Source of the DNA: Bacteroidota bacterium | GTDB taxonomy: Bacteria > Bacteroidota > Bacteroidia > B-17B0 > Aurantibacillaceae | NCBI GenBank assembly: GCA_025362395.1 | Contig: JANYGK010000100.1 | Coordinates: 1 to 33,060, forward strand | DNA: 33,060 nt | Direction: 5' to 3' | Part shown: positions 8,112 to 14,647 of the stretch, piece after piece | Position numbering within the stretch: the stretch's first letter is position 1 | Layout of the letters: each line of letters opens with the position of its first letter | Translations under genes and position numbers: made by a program | The notes under the pieces: generated by a model | Databases searched by the model: none | What the model was told of the DNA's origin: nothing | Seen by the model: the letters and a program-made list of their open reading frames with translations, nothing else

Positions 8112-8291
8112 TACGATATAGGGTTTAGTATAGTATTAAAGCTATGAATTTAAAAAGACAAATAAAAATATTTAACTTCCTTTGTTAAAAGGATGGTTTT
8201 TTCAACCTGTAAACTAAATAGTTGATGGATAAAAAAAAGGCGAACATCTATTATGTGCGGTAATTAAATCCTCTTTCACTTAATTTGATAC

Positions 8292-9353
8292 ATGATTACA
8301 CTGCAAAAAAATAATTTGGCGTTTAAGGCAAGCATTCACATTTTTATATGGCTTGTTTTATGTACTATGCCGTATTTTCTTTCTTCCACCGAAGCACCCG
8401 CGTTCGGTAAAATGCTCAAGTATTCGTGGGTACCAATGCTTTTTTACGCACTTATTTTTTATTTAAACTATTTTGTATTGATCGAAAAGTTGCTCTTTCA
8501 TAAAAAAACAGTGTATTATAGTATTATAAATCTTGCATTAATTATTTTGTGCACATGGGTTATTTACGAGGTTAAACATTTAATAAACACCATGTATCCT
8601 ATGTTAAAGCCTCCGGGCTCCTTAAATCCCGGTCATAAGCCCTCTTTAAAATTATTTATTTATAAGGATACCTTATCCCTCATTATTCCTATAGCTGTAT
8701 CCATAGCGGTTACCGTAACTGAAAAATGGACCCGTACCGAGTTTGAGAAAAAAGAAGCGGTAAGCGAAAACCTGAATTCAGAATTACAACATTTAAGATA
8801 CCAGTTGCATCCTCACTTTTTTTTTAATTCTCTTAATAACATTTACGTATTAATAGATCGTTCACCCGCAATGGCCCAAGAAGCTGTTCACAGCCTTGCA
8901 CAGCTGATGCGTTATATGTTATACGATACCGAATCGGGGCTAACTTCTGTGAGTAAAGAAATGGAATTTATGACGCAATATATTAACCTGATGAAGTTAA
9001 GGGTATCTGATAAAACAACTGTTCATACGGATTTCCCGGCGCTTACCCAAGACTGTAAAATAGCCCCATTATTATTTATTTCTTTTATTGAAAATGCCTT
9101 TAAGCATGGCATTTCTGCTACACATCCTTCTGAACTGCTGTTTAGCTTAACCGTAAAAGATAATACCATTAGGTTTAGTGCACAAAACACAAATTTCCCT
9201 AAAACAAGTAAAGATAAAAGCGGATCGGGTATTGATTTAAGCAATATTAAGAAACGTTTACAGTTATTATACCCTGATAGTTATATATTTGAAACAAAAG
9301 TGGATGGCGAGGTTTTTAAAGTAACTCTTACCATTGATCTGAACACTAATTAA
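8292..9353 (+). CDS. LytS/YehU-type sensor histidine kinase
   Basis: 353 residues. Four predicted membrane helices (about 12-30, 47-66, 76-94 and 126-143) form the sensor part. A His_kinase domain of the LytS class follows: QLHPHFFFNSLNN with phospho-acceptor H175, ENAFKHG (N268, ATP-binding N box) and GSGIDLSNIKKRL (G box). It lacks a separate periplasmic domain, so the signal is probably sensed in or near the membrane. It is 10 bp upstream of its LytTR response regulator and surely forms a pair with it. A TAATTTG (one base short of the -7 consensus) ends 4 nt before the ATG. Confidence 0.93.
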   Translation: MITLQKNNLAFKASIHIFIWLVLCTMPYFLSSTEAPAFGKMLKYSWVPMLFYALIFYLNYFVLIEKLLFHKKTVYYSIINLALIILCTWVIYEVKHLINTMYPMLKPPGSLNPGHKPSLKLFIYKDTLSLIIPIAVSIAVTVTEKWTRTEFEKKEAVSENLNSELQHLRYQLHPHFFFNSLNNIYVLIDRSPAMAQEAVHSLAQLMRYMLYDTESGLTSVSKEMEFMTQYINLMKLRVSDKTTVHTDFPALTQDCKIAPLLFISFIENAFKHGISATHPSELLFSLTVKDNTIRFSAQNTNFPKTSKDKSGSGIDLSNIKKRLQLLYPDSYIFETKVDGEVFKVTLTIDLNTN

Positions 9354-9363
9354 TAGAGTTATA

Positions 9364-10083
9364 ATGTCTAAAATAAATTGTTTAATCGTAGATGATGAGC
9401 CGCTTGCACTCGATTTGATTGAAAGCTATATAAACAAAACACCCTTTCTTGAACTGAAGGGAAGGTGCGGTAATGCTTTTGAAGCTATGGCCGTTTTAAA
9501 TAGAGATAAAATTGATCTTGTTTTTTTAGATATACAAATGCCTGATATGTCGGGCATGGAATTCAGTAAAACACTAGCTCCCGACATAAAAATAATTTTT
9601 ACTACTGCTTTTAGAGAGTATGCGTTTGAGGGTTTTAAAGTAAACGCGGTTGATTATTTATTGAAACCGTTTAATTATGCCGAATTTTTAAAAGCTTCCA
9701 ATAGAGCAGCGGAGCGCTTTAATTTACAATCTAAAAAAAGAGAGATACCTCACAAAGACCATTTCATGTTTGTGAAATCAGAATACAAACAAATAAAAAT
9801 TAATTTGGATGAAGTATTGTATTTTGAAGGATTAAAAGACTATGTAAAGATTTGGCTAACCTCTCAACCTAAGCCCATCCTTACACTTATGAGCCTTAAA
9901 ATTTTGGAACAGGAACTGGATCCCGGTAAATTTATGCGCATTCACCGTTCCTTTATTGCAGCACTCAATAAAATAGAATCCATTGAAAGAAGCCGGGTAA
10001 TTATTAATAAAGAAAGCATTACTATTGCCGAACAATATAAAGAAAAGTTTCGTGAATTTTTGGACCATAAATCCTTTCATTAG
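9364..10083 (+). CDS. LytTR-family response regulator
   Basis: 239 residues. An N-terminal receiver domain carries the acidic pair D10/D11 and phospho-acceptor D56 (VFLDIQMPD), with the conserved Lys in YLLKPF. A C-terminal LytTR DNA-binding domain (about 135-236) includes YFEGLKDYVKIWL and FMRIHRSFIAALNKIE. It partners with the upstream kinase. Targets are unknown; the lipoprotein and outer-membrane barrel genes 102 bp downstream on the same strand are obvious candidates, though no clear LytTR direct repeat was found by eye in that gap. The start is ATG at 9364. Confidence 0.94.
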   Translation: MSKINCLIVDDEPLALDLIESYINKTPFLELKGRCGNAFEAMAVLNRDKIDLVFLDIQMPDMSGMEFSKTLAPDIKIIFTTAFREYAFEGFKVNAVDYLLKPFNYAEFLKASNRAAERFNLQSKKREIPHKDHFMFVKSEYKQIKINLDEVLYFEGLKDYVKIWLTSQPKPILTLMSLKILEQELDPGKFMRIHRSFIAALNKIESIERSRVIINKESITIAEQYKEKFREFLDHKSFH

Positions 10084-10173
10084 TCATTGTAATCACCAAC
10101 GGTGTTTTAACCCTGTTCTTCTATAACCTTCTTTCAAACATCTATTGCTTTTTTTAGTGTCCGGTAATTATTT

Positions 10174-10181
10174 TAGCTTTG
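10174..10181 (+). promoter_or_regulatory. -7 element for the lipoprotein-barrel operon
   Basis: TAGCTTTG is a perfect TAnnTTTG ending 4 nt before the GTG start at 10186. No TTG lies at the normal -33 spacing, which would fit an activator-dependent promoter. Transcription would begin at or beside the start codon. Confidence 0.5.
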
Positions 10182-10185
10182 CGGT

Positions 10186-11052
10186 GTGAATAAACTCTTT
10201 AACTTATTAAAATTCCCTTTAAGTGCAGCGCTTTTAGGATTGGTCATACAGGCGGCTCTTACAAGCTGTTCAAAAGTAACCTACAGTCATTTAAAGTGGC
10301 AGGCAATACCTTCTGTAACGGATGGTAAACCATTGGAGTGGAGTATTCCATTAAAGTTTTTTCATAAGGACAGTAAATTAAATTATGATATCTCCAATGA
10401 TAAAAAGAACCTTTATGTTGTTTTTAAAATAACGGATGAGCTTACTAAAATGAAAGTGTTAAACTCCGGGATGCAATTTGCCATCGATGTAAAAGGAAAA
10501 AAAATATTTCCTGTAAGTATCGGCTATCCTTTATCTTCCGAGCATAATGTTCAACCCGGTTCCGATGTGCCATATACCGGCGAAGGTAATTTGGGAGAAG
10601 AAACTATATTGGCGGCATCAAAGCAAATGATGAGAATATCAGGTTTTAATGCCGATGTGAAAGAAGGATTAGTACCGCAAAAAAACGAGTATGGCATACA
10701 AACCGCTATAACGGTAACAAGAGATGATATTTTATATTATGAACTTAGGGTGCCTTTTAAAACATTTTATAAAGAAACAATAACCGCCACAGATACGGTT
10801 AATCCTTTTAGTTTTGAGATCACGTTAAATCCTCTTACAGAAGGTAAGATGAACCCCCTCGATGATGCCGGTGATACTAATTCACAAAACGGCGCAGGCA
10901 ATGGTAGCGGAATGCCCGGTGGCGGTGGCTCTATGCCGGGAGCAGGTGGTGGCATGCCCGGCGGTGGCGGTATGCCACGCCATAAAACGGATGTTGCTCC
11001 CGGTAATGAAAAACAGGTGATCACACAAAAATTAAAATTATCTATTAAATAA
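10186..11052 (+). CDS. Lipoprotein with CBM9/DOMON-like domain and Gly-Met-Pro-rich tail
   Basis: 288 residues. A lipoprotein signal peptide ends in the lipobox LTSC with C28. A beta-rich domain (about 40-215) has the spaced pattern DGKPLEWSIPL, YDISNDKKNLYVVFKI and GMQFAIDVKGKK seen in CBM9/DOMON-like binding domains of Bacteroidota; this assignment is by pattern only. Residues about 232-265 are low-complexity (GMPGGGGSMPGAGGGMP). The start is GTG at 10186, since no other Met precedes the signal peptide. It is 8 bp upstream of a large outer-membrane barrel that carries similar Gly-rich stretches, so the two probably work together at the outer membrane. The ligand is unknown. Confidence 0.8.
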   Translation: MNKLFNLLKFPLSAALLGLVIQAALTSCSKVTYSHLKWQAIPSVTDGKPLEWSIPLKFFHKDSKLNYDISNDKKNLYVVFKITDELTKMKVLNSGMQFAIDVKGKKIFPVSIGYPLSSEHNVQPGSDVPYTGEGNLGEETILAASKQMMRISGFNADVKEGLVPQKNEYGIQTAITVTRDDILYYELRVPFKTFYKETITATDTVNPFSFEITLNPLTEGKMNPLDDAGDTNSQNGAGNGSGMPGGGGSMPGAGGGMPGGGGMPRHKTDVAPGNEKQVITQKLKLSIK

Positions 11053-11060
11053 TAAGGTTC

Positions 11061-13952
11061 ATGAAATCGTTTTGTCGTTTTCTTTTGACGTTTTTAGCCT
11101 TAAGCTCAACGGCTTTTGCACAACTTGTTCCGGTATCCGGAAGCATCTCCGATAAATCAGGCATTTTGGTGGGTTCATTAGTGAAAGTGCTGACTAAAGA
11201 TTCTACTTTTGTAACCGGTTCTTCAACCGACGGTGACGGTAAATTCAATATTGATCTGAGTCCGAACACACGTTATATTATTCAAATATCTTTTTTAGGA
11301 TACAAAACATTAAGTCGTATTGTAGAAGTAAAGAGTGCTCCAATAGTATTGGGCAATATTATTTTGCAGGAAGACGCGCAAACATTGAAGGAAGTAGTAG
11401 TAGAAACTGTTCAGGTTAGAGGCACGCAAAAAGGAGATACAACACAATTTAATTCAGATGCATTTAAAACACATCCTGATGCGACAGCAGAAGACCTTGT
11501 TAAAAAAATGCCGGGTATTACTTCCGATAATAATGGGGTAAAAGTAAACGGGGAAACCGTTACTAAAGTATTGGTTGACGGTAAACCTTTTTTTGGTGAT
11601 GATCCTAATGCTGCTTTAAAAAATCTGCCGTCCGAAATTGTAGATAAGATTCAGGTTTTTGATAAAGCCGGCGATCAGTCGCAGTTCACAGGCTTTAATG
11701 ACGGCGATCAACAAAAAACAATTAACATCATTACCAAGAATGGAAAAAATATCGGGCAGTTCGGTAAAATATATGCCGGTTATGGAACCAACGATCGCTA
11801 TAACGCCGGAGCTACGGTTAACAGCTTTAATAATAAAAGAAGAATTTCTTTACTGTTACTTTCCAATAATATCAATCAGCAAAACTTTAGCATTTCGGAT
11901 ATTATGGGAGTGATGAGCAACTCCGGGCAAAGCGGTGGAGGCGGAGGTGGTGGCCCGAGAGGTGGCGGAGGTGGCCCCGGTGGAGGTGGCGGAGCTGCAA
12001 GCAGTTTATTAACGGGTCAGCAAAGCGGTTTAACAGCTACGCAGTCTGCCGGTTTAAATTATTCGGATGCCTGGGGAAAAAAAATAAATGTATCGGGAAG
12101 CTACTTCTTTAACTATACGGATAATAATAACTTATCTAACGTTGTGCGGACTTACTTTACAGATAATAATTTAATTTACAATCAAAATAACTCCACTAAA
12201 ACGGCTAATCAAAATAACCGTCTCAATTTCAGATTTGAGTACAATATAGATTCCAGTAATAAACTCACTATTGTGCCGAGCTTGAATCTGCAAAAGAACA
12301 CAACCAACAGCGTGCTCCTGGGAAGCAATACCATACTTGATAATATCCTGTTAAGCCAAACCAATACCACTTCTAAAATGAACAACCTGGGTTATGATTT
12401 TTCAAACTCTATAGTATACCAGCATAAGCTTACTAAATTGGGAAGAACTATTTCTTTAAACATAGGAACACAGCTTACTGAAAAAAGTAACGACGGAAGT
12501 TATATATCAGATAATATTTACAGGGATACCATGTCTGTGCTCGATCAGAAATACGGGACTTACAGTAACAGTAAAAAAGTATCGGCAAACTTATCTTATA
12601 CAGAGCCCGCGGGTGTTAACGGGCAGGTGTTGGTAAGCTACAACCCCTCTTACATTGCCGGTAAGGTCAATAAATCAACCAATGACTTTAGCGCAGCTAC
12701 CGATGATTATACGAATTTCAATACGTCTTTATCAAACAAATATAATAACATTAATGAGATACAACGCGGCGGCTTAAGTTATAAATACCGTAAAGGCAAA
12801 CTGAATTATAGTGTTGGAGCTGATGCCCAATACTCTACTTTAAAAGGGAATGAAACTTTTCCGGTATCGTATGTCATTAATAAATCATTTACAAACGTGT
12901 TGCCTAATGCACAGTTAAATTATAAATTCAGCCAATCGCGTAATTTAAATGTGAATTACCGTTCTACCACTAATATTCCTAACGTTATCCAATTACAAAA
13001 TGTACTGGATATTTCGAACCCTTTGCAAATTAAATCGGGGAACGCTGATCTGAAACAAACCTTTGAGAACAATATCAATGTTCGGTTCGGAGGATTTAAC
13101 TCCAAAACGTCCCGTAACATCATGTTGTTTTTAAACGGTAATTATGTAGATAACTATGTGAGTAATGCCACGTATATTCTTAAAACAGATTCGTTCATAC
13201 AGGGCTATCATACCAAGGCCGGAAGCCAGTTAACGAAGCCGGTTAACGTTGACGGTTACTATACAACCCGTGCATTTTTGGTTTACGGTTTTCCTGTTAA
13301 GGCAATTAAAAGTAACGTAAATTTAAACGGAGGCATTAACTATAACCACACACCTACCGTTATTAATAATGTAGCCAACATTTCAAATAATTACGCGCTT
13401 AACGGGGGTGTTTTTGTGGGTAGTAATATCAGCCGAAACATCGATTTTTCGCTTGGTTATAACGGAAGCTATAACATTGTAAAGAATACGGTACAGGCTC
13501 AATCCAATAACAATTATTTTACACAAACCACAACCTTTAAAGCTAACTGGATTATTAAAGGCAGGATCGTTCTAAATACAGAAATCAATCATATTTTATA
13601 CACCGGCTTAACCCAAAGTTACAATCAACATTATTTTTTATGGAATGCTTATGCAGGATATAAATTCTTAAAAAATAAATTACTGGAAGCAAAAGTTACC
13701 GTGTTCGATATCTTAAATCAAAACAAGAGTATTAGCCGTACTATTACAGGAACTTATAACGAAGACAGTAAAACCAATGTGTTAACGCAATATGCTATGT
13801 TTACCCTGACCTATACCTTCAGAAATTTTAAAGCAGGTGCCCGGGCTCCAACAGCTCCTGTAGATCCCAATGCGCCACCGAATCCGAATTTCCAAAGAGG
13901 CGGCGGAGGCTTTCCTCCCGGTGGTATGCCACCACCTTCCGGAGGCGGATAA
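11061..13952 (+). CDS. TonB-receptor-like outer-membrane beta-barrel protein (OMP_b-brl_3 type)
   Basis: 963 residues. A signal peptide (about 1-20, FLALSSTAFAQ) precedes a carboxypeptidase-regulatory-like domain (about 25-110). A plug-like domain (about 130-235) carries DGKPFFGDDPNAALKNLP and VFDKAGDQSQFTGFNDGD, the hallmark of the OMP_b-brl_3 family, and is followed by a long barrel. Two low-complexity inserts stand out: Gly-rich residues about 290-314, likely in a loop just after the plug, and a C-terminal tail about 946-963 (GGFPPGGMPPPSGGG). The tail is unusual because barrels normally end in an aromatic residue, so it would lie beyond the last strand. It is co-transcribed with the upstream lipoprotein (8-bp gap). 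Family members are presumed transport or outer-membrane assembly proteins; the substrate is unknown. Confidence 0.9.
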   Translation: MKSFCRFLLTFLALSSTAFAQLVPVSGSISDKSGILVGSLVKVLTKDSTFVTGSSTDGDGKFNIDLSPNTRYIIQISFLGYKTLSRIVEVKSAPIVLGNIILQEDAQTLKEVVVETVQVRGTQKGDTTQFNSDAFKTHPDATAEDLVKKMPGITSDNNGVKVNGETVTKVLVDGKPFFGDDPNAALKNLPSEIVDKIQVFDKAGDQSQFTGFNDGDQQKTINIITKNGKNIGQFGKIYAGYGTNDRYNAGATVNSFNNKRRISLLLLSNNINQQNFSISDIMGVMSNSGQSGGGGGGGPRGGGGGPGGGGGAASSLLTGQQSGLTATQSAGLNYSDAWGKKINVSGSYFFNYTDNNNLSNVVRTYFTDNNLIYNQNNSTKTANQNNRLNFRFEYNIDSSNKLTIVPSLNLQKNTTNSVLLGSNTILDNILLSQTNTTSKMNNLGYDFSNSIVYQHKLTKLGRTISLNIGTQLTEKSNDGSYISDNIYRDTMSVLDQKYGTYSNSKKVSANLSYTEPAGVNGQVLVSYNPSYIAGKVNKSTNDFSAATDDYTNFNTSLSNKYNNINEIQRGGLSYKYRKGKLNYSVGADAQYSTLKGNETFPVSYVINKSFTNVLPNAQLNYKFSQSRNLNVNYRSTTNIPNVIQLQNVLDISNPLQIKSGNADLKQTFENNINVRFGGFNSKTSRNIMLFLNGNYVDNYVSNATYILKTDSFIQGYHTKAGSQLTKPVNVDGYYTTRAFLVYGFPVKAIKSNVNLNGGINYNHTPTVINNVANISNNYALNGGVFVGSNISRNIDFSLGYNGSYNIVKNTVQAQSNNNYFTQTTTFKANWIIKGRIVLNTEINHILYTGLTQSYNQHYFLWNAYAGYKFLKNKLLEAKVTVFDILNQNKSISRTITGTYNEDSKTNVLTQYAMFTLTYTFRNFKAGARAPTAPVDPNAPPNPNFQRGGGGFPPGGMPPPSGGG

Positions 13953-14024
13953 AAAGATTTATTATTGAAATAGTGTGTTGAAAATTAAGAAGTCTGATTA
14001 CTTTTAACTTTCCTTATATAAAAC

Positions 14025-14056
14025 AATAAAGCTCTATTGTGATGTAGAGCTTTATT
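14025..14056. terminator. Bidirectional rho-independent-type terminator
   Basis: AATAAAGCTCTA (14025-14036) and TAGAGCTTTATT (14045-14056) form a perfect 12-bp stem with an 8-nt loop, A-rich on the left and T-rich on the right. It lies between the convergent barrel gene (ends 13952) and ferritin gene (ends 14081) and serves both. Confidence 0.85.
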
Positions 14057-14080
14057 ATAAAATTAATAAAACTTGCACTG

Positions 14081-14647
14081 TTAAGGATTTTCAGTCGTTG
14101 CATCTTCAGCAGACTCTGCATCATCCGGTGTTTTTTCAAGGTCACGGTCTAATGAATACAATGAATGTGAATTTGCATTTTCACCGCCGGCAATTTTAAT
14201 TTTATCAATTAAATTCATAGCCAGTGTTTCTTCTTCTATCTGTTCTTTTACAAACCATTGCATAAAGTTCCAGGTAGCCCAGTCCTCTTCACTATGTGCC
14301 ATTTTAGCGACTGCATAAATGGCTGTAGTATTATCAACCTCATGTTGAAATACTTTTTCAAAGCAATCATTAATACTTTTAGGGTCAGCAGGCGGAGCAG
14401 GTATTGCAGTAACGGTTACTTTTCCCCCTCTTTTTAAAATATATTCAACAAGCTTCATCATGTGGTTACGTTCTTCACCGGAGTGTCTAAAAAGAAAATT
14501 AGCAATTCCGCCACATCCTTGACTATCAGCCCAAGCCCCGTATGATAAAAATATCTGTGCTGCATGAGCTTCTTTAGTCATTTGGTCGTTTAACGCTTTT
14601 TCAAGAGTTTTTGAAAGTCTGTTAGTATTCATAATCTTAGTTTTCAT
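14081..14647 (-). CDS. ftnA: Bacterial non-heme ferritin
   Basis: 188 residues with the four-helix ferritin fold. With a constant offset of 9 from E. coli FtnA numbering, all ferroxidase and third-site residues are present: E26, E59, H62, E103, Q136 and E139 (GEERNHMMKL; HEVDNTT; KEQIEEE). It oxidises Fe(II) and stores the mineral in a 24-subunit cage in the cytoplasm. The last ~25 residues (DRDLEKTPDDAESAED...) form an acidic extension beyond the usual family end. The ATG at 14647 is the longest start; M6 (MNTNRLSKTLEKAL) is equally plausible. Its 3' end is closed by the shared terminator at 14025-14056. Confidence 0.92.
   Translation of the reverse strand: MKTKIMNTNRLSKTLEKALNDQMTKEAHAAQIFLSYGAWADSQGCGGIANFLFRHSGEERNHMMKLVEYILKRGGKVTVTAIPAPPADPKSINDCFEKVFQHEVDNTTAIYAVAKMAHSEEDWATWNFMQWFVKEQIEEETLAMNLIDKIKIAGGENANSHSLYSLDRDLEKTPDDAESAEDATTENP

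Follow-up and report, generated by a model that had tools for sequence, protein, structure and literature searches.

What does a LytTR two-component pair control when a lipoprotein gene and an outer-membrane barrel gene follow it on the same strand? The question is raised by a contig of 33,060 nucleotides from a member of the Bacteroidota (family Aurantibacillaceae; assembly GCA_025362395.1, contig JANYGK010000100.1), referred to here as the window. A first-pass annotation had read a kinase-regulator-lipoprotein-barrel order in it, and this was confirmed as four open reading frames (ORFs) on the + strand, with families assigned by Pfam. The first encodes a LytS-type sensor histidine kinase (HK; 8292-9353; 353 amino acids (aa); His_kinase PF06580, 81.3 bits) with four transmembrane segments by hydropathy, a PHFFFN H-box and no evident periplasmic domain. 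The second encodes a response regulator (RR; 9364-10083; 239 aa) that joins a receiver domain (PF00072) to a LytTR DNA-binding domain (PF04397). All three models score above their cut-offs, which places the pair among LytTR two-component systems. The lipoprotein (LP; 10186-11052; 288 aa) has a GTG start and the lipobox LTSC. The outer-membrane barrel protein (OMP; 11061-13952; 963 aa) matches OMP_b-brl_3 (PF14905) with 83.7 bits against a gathering threshold of 27, and carries CarbopepD_reg_2, with the CarboxypepD_reg-like N-terminal domain placed by Pfam at 11133-11402 (+, residues 25-114). The intergenic gaps measure 10 bp (HK-RR), 102 bp (RR-LP) and 8 bp (LP-OMP). We consider it rather probable that these genes form an outer-membrane transport operon that is inducible through a local LytTR two-component switch of its own.

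The gap of 102 bp contains the element that carries this reading, a perfect copy (10118-10181) of the composite yNTCTAT-N14-yNTCTAT-N28-TAnnTTTG. On the + strand it consists of two candidate operator half-sites assigned by comparative genomics, CTTCTAT (10118-10124) and CATCTAT (10139-10145), which form a direct repeat with a 21-bp period, and of a -7 box, TAGCTTTG (10174-10181), 28 bp after the second half-site. The box fits the -7 consensus TAnnTTTG given in an excerpt of PMC7366714, according to which no -33 motif was identifiable in Flavobacterium johnsoniae; a reading of the window sequence found no TTTG around -33 of the LP promoter. A scan for sigma-70-type promoters is uninformative for Bacteroidota. 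The promoter with a -7 but without a -33 element, as first annotated, is present, and the activator control by the LytTR protein that had been suggested with it is supported by the conserved 21-bp-period repeat, whose spacing to the -7 box is constant. The candidate operator lies inside the stretch 10084-10180 earlier named for LytTR binding, its -7 box reaching to 10181.

The repeat was first noticed by eye, as TTCTAT/ATCTAT words 21 bp apart in regions beside related regulators. We scored half-sites as yNTC[TG]AT in 23 HK/RR-flanking regions from 12 loci with an RR at least 55% identical to that of the window, using 500 first-order Markov shuffles as the control. A pair at 21 bp was found in 9 of the 23 regions, compared with a shuffle mean of 0.014, and 9 of 13 pairs spaced 8-40 bp apart fell at exactly 21 bp. 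The geometry of the whole composite is narrow: in loci retrieved by homology only, N14/N28 gave 17 distinct sites (at most two mismatches), other half-site spacers (10-18 except 14) gave 1-4, and other promoter spacers (24, 26, 27, 29, 30, 32) gave 2-6. The retrieved loci together (2.68 Mb) hold 21 composite sites, four of them in loci fetched through the composite pattern itself, versus 0 for the reversed motif. No composite site with at most one mismatch was found in the homology-fetched loci that lack the regulator, and at least three sites with two mismatches in loci without a regulator (L034, L078, L124) look like chance.

In the genome of the window the composite has one perfect copy (10118-10181), three with two mismatches and 56 with three, a total of 60 versus 76 in the reversed control; there is only one convincing site, and it lies directly upstream of LP. 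The bare repeat with at most one mismatch occurs at 216 places versus 300 in the reversed control (nine perfect copies). A wider regulon in this genome was rejected because the bare repeat is not enriched and the composite has a single convincing site, and no distant targets are claimed. Among 396 genomes of the same class (Bacteroidota), the composite with at most one mismatch occurs at 77 places in 64 genomes, that of the window being the sole perfect one. In genomes bearing the RR, 7 of 21 such matches lie within 10 kb of the RR gene, where 0.13 would be expected (leaving the window out, 6 of 20 do), the 10-kb limit having been chosen after the matches were seen.

Related loci (L numbers; gene families partly checked by family search, the rest by similarity) show which genes lie behind the element. 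It precedes LP-OMP in the window. It precedes a longer operon, in which a TonB-dependent transporter (TBDT) and a DUF4249 protein come before LP and OMP, in L131 and L023 with perfect sites (small ORFs intervene in L023) and in L156 with one mismatch. It is found before HK in L023, L131 and L085, the last with the order HK-TBDT-DUF4249-RR-OMP. In other loci it heads export operons, TolC-HlyD-ABC-MacB in L087, L269, L271 and, with two mismatches, L099, and HlyD-RND-TolC in L098; in L270 it stands before an unidentified ORF of 186 aa. Locus L025 reads HlyD-ABC-MacB-HK-RR-TBDT-DUF4249-LP in one direction, with a two-mismatch site before the TBDT gene. A TBDT-DUF4249 pair (L272:7866-10771), 73% and 68% identical to that of L131, has the operator and no HK-RR in 18 kb, and by sequence comparison is a possible trans-regulated target. 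DUF4249 proteins have been proposed to work together with TonB-dependent transporters, as stated in an excerpt of PMC11003636, which cites a bioRxiv paper on transporter lids. Comparison of these loci shows that a candidate element joining repeat and promoter in a strict geometry recurs where transport operons begin.

In locus L271 (3114-14997) a TBDT-DUF4249-HK-RR set runs divergently from HK-RR-TolC-HlyD-ABC-MacB on the opposite strand, so that the locus holds two LytTR pairs, with genes for an exporter and for an importer next to them.

In the window, HK itself has a possible promoter on the + strand (8245-8287), with a single half-site CATCTAT (8245-8251), N28 and the -7-like box TTAATTTG (8280-8287), the ATG coming 5 nt after the box; it is absent from the own-genome composite matches at up to three mismatches. 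The start codon likewise lies 5 nt past the end of the -7 box at the window LP (10181-10186), the window HK (8287-8292) and the HK of L023 (L023:644-649), a spacing from which near-leaderless mRNAs are predicted at the three promoters. In B. thetaiotaomicron, 5' untranslated regions shorter than 10 nt make up only ~3.7%, according to an excerpt of PMC7366714.

The following mechanism would account for this arrangement. The membrane kinase would, as its family suggests, sense a signal in or at the membrane and phosphorylate RR, which would bind the direct repeat at 10118-10145 and recruit RNA polymerase to the promoter lacking a -33 element, the downstream half-site ending 28 bp before the -7 box. 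Binding would switch on both LP and OMP; with 8 bp between them, the two genes probably share a transcript. OMP would act as a TBDT-like barrel: all 50 Foldseek matches listed for its model are TonB-dependent transporters (759-993 alignment columns), which its modelled fold resembles. LP, as an outer-membrane lipoprotein facing the periplasm, would receive or stage cargo or assist the barrel. Because similar operators in relatives precede MacAB- or RND-TolC exporters and TBDT-DUF4249 pairs, the probable signal is a peptide or small molecule crossing the envelope. We propose more tentatively that a class-wide LytTR operator code may couple one regulator lineage interchangeably to exporters (MacAB-TolC, RND) and to import modules (TBDT-DUF4249, LP-OMP). 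This would amount to a switch between export and import for a single class of compounds that cross the envelope, and in LP the PF14905 transporters would have a new family of periplasmic partners.

Several observations weigh against a locally switched transport operon. The motif was defined on the same regions in which it was later scored. The 21-bp pair thins with distance, to 2 of 17 regions at 48-55% RR identity and 0 of 26 below 48%, and the loci with the closest regulators (L083, L084 and L086, 66-69% identical) have no composite site at up to two mismatches; two of them, L083 and L084, also lack LP. In L083 the 21-bp repeat does stand both ahead of HK and ahead of OMP, though neither copy has a -7 box at N28. 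The composite as such shows no enrichment over the 396 genomes: its 77 places compare with 66 for the reversed motif (tally), so that chance probably accounts for most of the 77. The HK promoter of the window has one good half-site only, its upstream half-site being degenerate, and most LP and OMP loci are without both RR and operator. On the side of the barrel, the structure model of OMP is weak (mean per-residue confidence, pLDDT, 66.5; pTM 0.53), its Foldseek TM-scores are low (0.21-0.31 by query length), and Pfam Plug has no match in the window OMP.

The role of LP was approached through its fold. A search with its sequence gave no Pfam match up to E=1, nor any NCBIfam match above cut-off. 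The structure model, built with 55 sequences, has a pLDDT of 81.8 and a pTM of 0.74, most of the folded core exceeding 90, while residues ~230-261 stay below 50 ahead of the last strand (277-284). Its best solved-fold match is CBM9 (7nwn, Z 12.4, 3.2 Å over 146 residues; the next at Z 12.3; 1i82 at Z 11.7), and the first match after CBM9 is ethylbenzene dehydrogenase gamma (2ivf_C, Z 10.4). Foldseek alone returned nothing below E=0.001 with this model, and a search of PDB sequences with the LP profile, up to E=1, turned up mostly low-complexity matches and not one CBM9 chain. As modelled, then, LP is a CBM9-fold lipoprotein without a CBM9 sequence-family match, in line with the CBM9/DOMON-like domain annotated at first. 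It resembles CBM9 modules in fold and differs from them in this missing family match and in a long Gly/Met-rich insert before the last strand. The modelled fold (2ivf_C, 7b04) would also be compatible with a haem/DOMON electron-transfer role.

A protein of this kind might instead sit on OMP as a lid at the cell surface, in the manner of SusD or as proposed for DUF4249 proteins, an explanation we regard as unlikely. CBM9 is a ligand-binding fold, and the gene beside LP is TBDT-like in 26 of 106 distinct loci. These come from LP neighbourhoods collected from the 396 genomes, 60 relatives and 57 named loci retrieved by one peptide pattern, which gave 120 loci, 106 of them distinct at 95% identity. 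However, no lid domain of the SusD or DUF4249 type was found in the LP sequence by Pfam search up to E=1, the DUF4249 model itself giving no match, and the lipoprotein surface-export signal, given as K-(D/E)2 or Q-A-(D/E)2 in an excerpt of PMC5080379, is absent. The window LP reads CSKVTYS after its lipobox, with no acidic signal following the Cys. A lipobox was recognised in 57 of the 106 LPs by a simple pattern that overlooked some genuine lipoproteins in the remaining 49, and two acidic residues at +2 to +7 occur in 0 of these 57; for comparison, among 9 neighbouring DUF4249-like proteins the sequence is CKKEE or CNKEE in 3 (L023, L077, L156) and variable in the rest. The homologues in L019, L021 and L043 have no Cys within their first 45 residues. 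Because the export signal is absent, LP is predicted to face the periplasm, as the transport-operon reading has it.

It had further been proposed that the four genes make up a self-contained module with matching Gly/Pro/Met-rich segments in LP and OMP. We consider a fixed sensing cassette of this kind, its segments interacting with each other, very improbable. Across the 396 genomes LP, searched with a profile of 13 homologues, is present in 49, RR (E<=1e-60) in 59 and OMP (E<=1e-90) in 172. OMP is found in 29 of the 49 LP genomes versus 143 of the 347 others (Fisher p=0.013), and RR in 11 of 49 versus 48 of 347 (Fisher p=0.09), both overlaps being hand-counted from genome lists. Among the 106 distinct LP loci, 26 have an OMP homologue directly adjacent on the same strand (22 downstream, 4 upstream; six of the 26 are remote homologues of 24-34% identity), and 11 have HK/RR-family genes within six genes on the same strand, including the weak or remote cases L077 (27% identity), L159 and L161 (4-6 genes away). 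Only five combine both (the window, L023, L127, L131 and L156). 'Adjacent' here refers to the retrieved loci, so an unpaired gene may have its partner elsewhere in its genome. L154 reads RR-LP-OMP and was left out of the counts, a contig edge cutting its RR (67% identical over 109 residues). The four genes are not a fixed cassette. Over the 396 genomes the two-component pair and the lipoprotein-barrel pair largely occur independently, an outcome that the first-pass annotation itself had set against its proposal.

The order does recur. Exact HK-RR-LP-OMP is found again in L127 with a regulator from another branch of the tree, and L131 and L156 read HK-RR-TBDT-DUF4249-LP-OMP; L158 and L160 carry HK-RR-LP with a regulator from a third branch. 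LP thus stands beside LytTR pairs at three places in the regulator tree (the group of the window, L127 and L158/L160; deep forks weakly supported), and for this reason the LP-LytTR association looks recurrent rather than accidental at the sequence level.

In L040, a single-contig genome, the OMP gene just upstream of LP is broken into several ORFs, by decay or sequencing errors. A distant LP branch (L164, L167, L170-L172, L174-L177) has an AIR-synthase-related gene (cluster c8, Pfam checked in L170) next or next but one to LP, and in some loci a prolyl-oligopeptidase-like gene comes after it; beside LP in this branch, neither an OMP nor a regulator of the window families was seen.

The low-complexity segments themselves exist in both proteins, with plainly biased composition: a low-confidence Gly/Met/Pro-rich loop of the GMPGGGG type in LP (10867-11001, +; approximately residues 228-272, before the last strand), a Gly-rich loop in OMP (11910-12020, +; residues 284-320) and a Pro/Gly/Met-rich C-terminal tail in OMP (GGMPPPSGGG; 13830-13949, +; residues 924-963). 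What finds no support is that they match as a specific pair. Among OMPs at least 35% identical (nine rows below 35% were dropped, five LP-adjacent and four not), a Gly-rich loop (at least 35% Gly over at least 15 residues) occurs in 11 of 18 LP-adjacent versus 20 of 27 non-adjacent proteins, and the Gly/Pro/Met-rich tail in 7 of 18 versus 7 of 27, so that the OMP segments are no commoner beside LP. The LP segment (at least 60% Gly/Met/Pro over 20 residues, within the final 130) is somewhat commoner beside OMP (21 of 26 versus 46 of 80 other LPs), though the non-adjacent set holds remote branches. By an inferred topology of low confidence, drawn from strand order and short turns, the OMP Gly loop would be extracellular and the tail periplasmic, which would put the loop outside and LP inside. 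We rejected the segments as a pairing signature of a module because both occur without the partner adjacent; they are traits of each protein family, not a matched pair.

The same loops could be taken for soft-metal ligands of a pair that binds or takes up a metal such as copper through Met/His-rich stretches, and to this, with the neighbouring genes clustered and part of them annotated, we give little credence. LP loops do repeat GMGGGGM, sometimes with His, and the OMP fold matches include metal and siderophore transporters; but those matches reflect the general TBDT fold, and the Met count in the last 130 residues ranges from 0 to 15 across the LP family. That HK-RR is an efflux or envelope-stress regulator with its real targets elsewhere, placed beside LP-OMP incidentally, is hardly credible, since the own genome's sole perfect operator-promoter copy lies directly upstream of LP, even though related RR genes sit in TolC-HlyD-ABC-MacB operons (L087, L088, L091, L093, L095, L096 and L099 by gene clusters, with Pfam checked for L087 only and no HK of the cluster called in L096).

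The locally switched operon can be compared with known systems. It shares with LytTR direct-repeat two-component systems a receiver-LytTR regulator, a LytS-type kinase and repeats about two helical turns apart just upstream of a promoter, a position in which an excerpt of PMC6193735 also places other LytTR direct repeats. It differs in its half-site (yNTCTAT), in the N28 to a Bacteroidota -7 box and in its outer-membrane transport and efflux targets. The same excerpt gives 9-bp repeats mostly 12 bp apart for LytTR Regulatory Systems (LRS) and 11-bp repeats 11 bp apart for LRS-like operons of Bacteroides. A LytTR activator, local autoregulation and, in some species, nearby ABC transporters are likenesses to LRS, again as excerpted from PMC6193735; the LRS regulator, however, pairs with a membrane inhibitor, whereas the window has a histidine kinase and a receiver domain and so falls outside that class. 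Proposed TBDT-DUF4249 pairs (BT2172-BT2173) have counterparts in the same cluster in L023, L025, L085, L131 and L156, but not beside the window genes, and LP differs from DUF4249 proteins in matching no DUF4249 model and lacking the acidic export signal. Fjoh_0545 of the Flavobacterium johnsoniae PhoBR operon resembles OMP in combining CarbopepD_reg_2 with PF14905 and is annotated as a TBDT, the next locus tag being a hypothetical lipoprotein; it differs in its regulator and in its Pfam Plug match, absent from the window OMP (excerpt of PMC8115612). LytTR mutations arose in lines of Flavobacterium johnsoniae that had evolved next to an antibiotic-producing organism; their effect is unknown according to the authors in an excerpt of PMC10197871, and no link to the RR subfamily of the window is made.

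Among the open-licence papers listed, none shows an operator for LytTR regulators of the receiver type in Bacteroidota. If the operator is defined and its spacing to the -7 box fixed, the targets of such regulators would become predictable from sequence, and it would become clear how activation can work at a promoter that lacks a -33 element. Through a shared switch, efflux pumps and TBDT-DUF4249 transporters would be linked with PF14905 barrels and the uncharacterised LP family.

Downstream of OMP, stem-loops of the terminator kind are not commoner in this DNA than in shuffles (6 versus a mean of 5.1). One of them (14023-14058, scored on the - strand only) is a possible terminator, and behind it, convergent to the operon, lies a ferritin-like gene (14081-14647) that nothing ties to the module.

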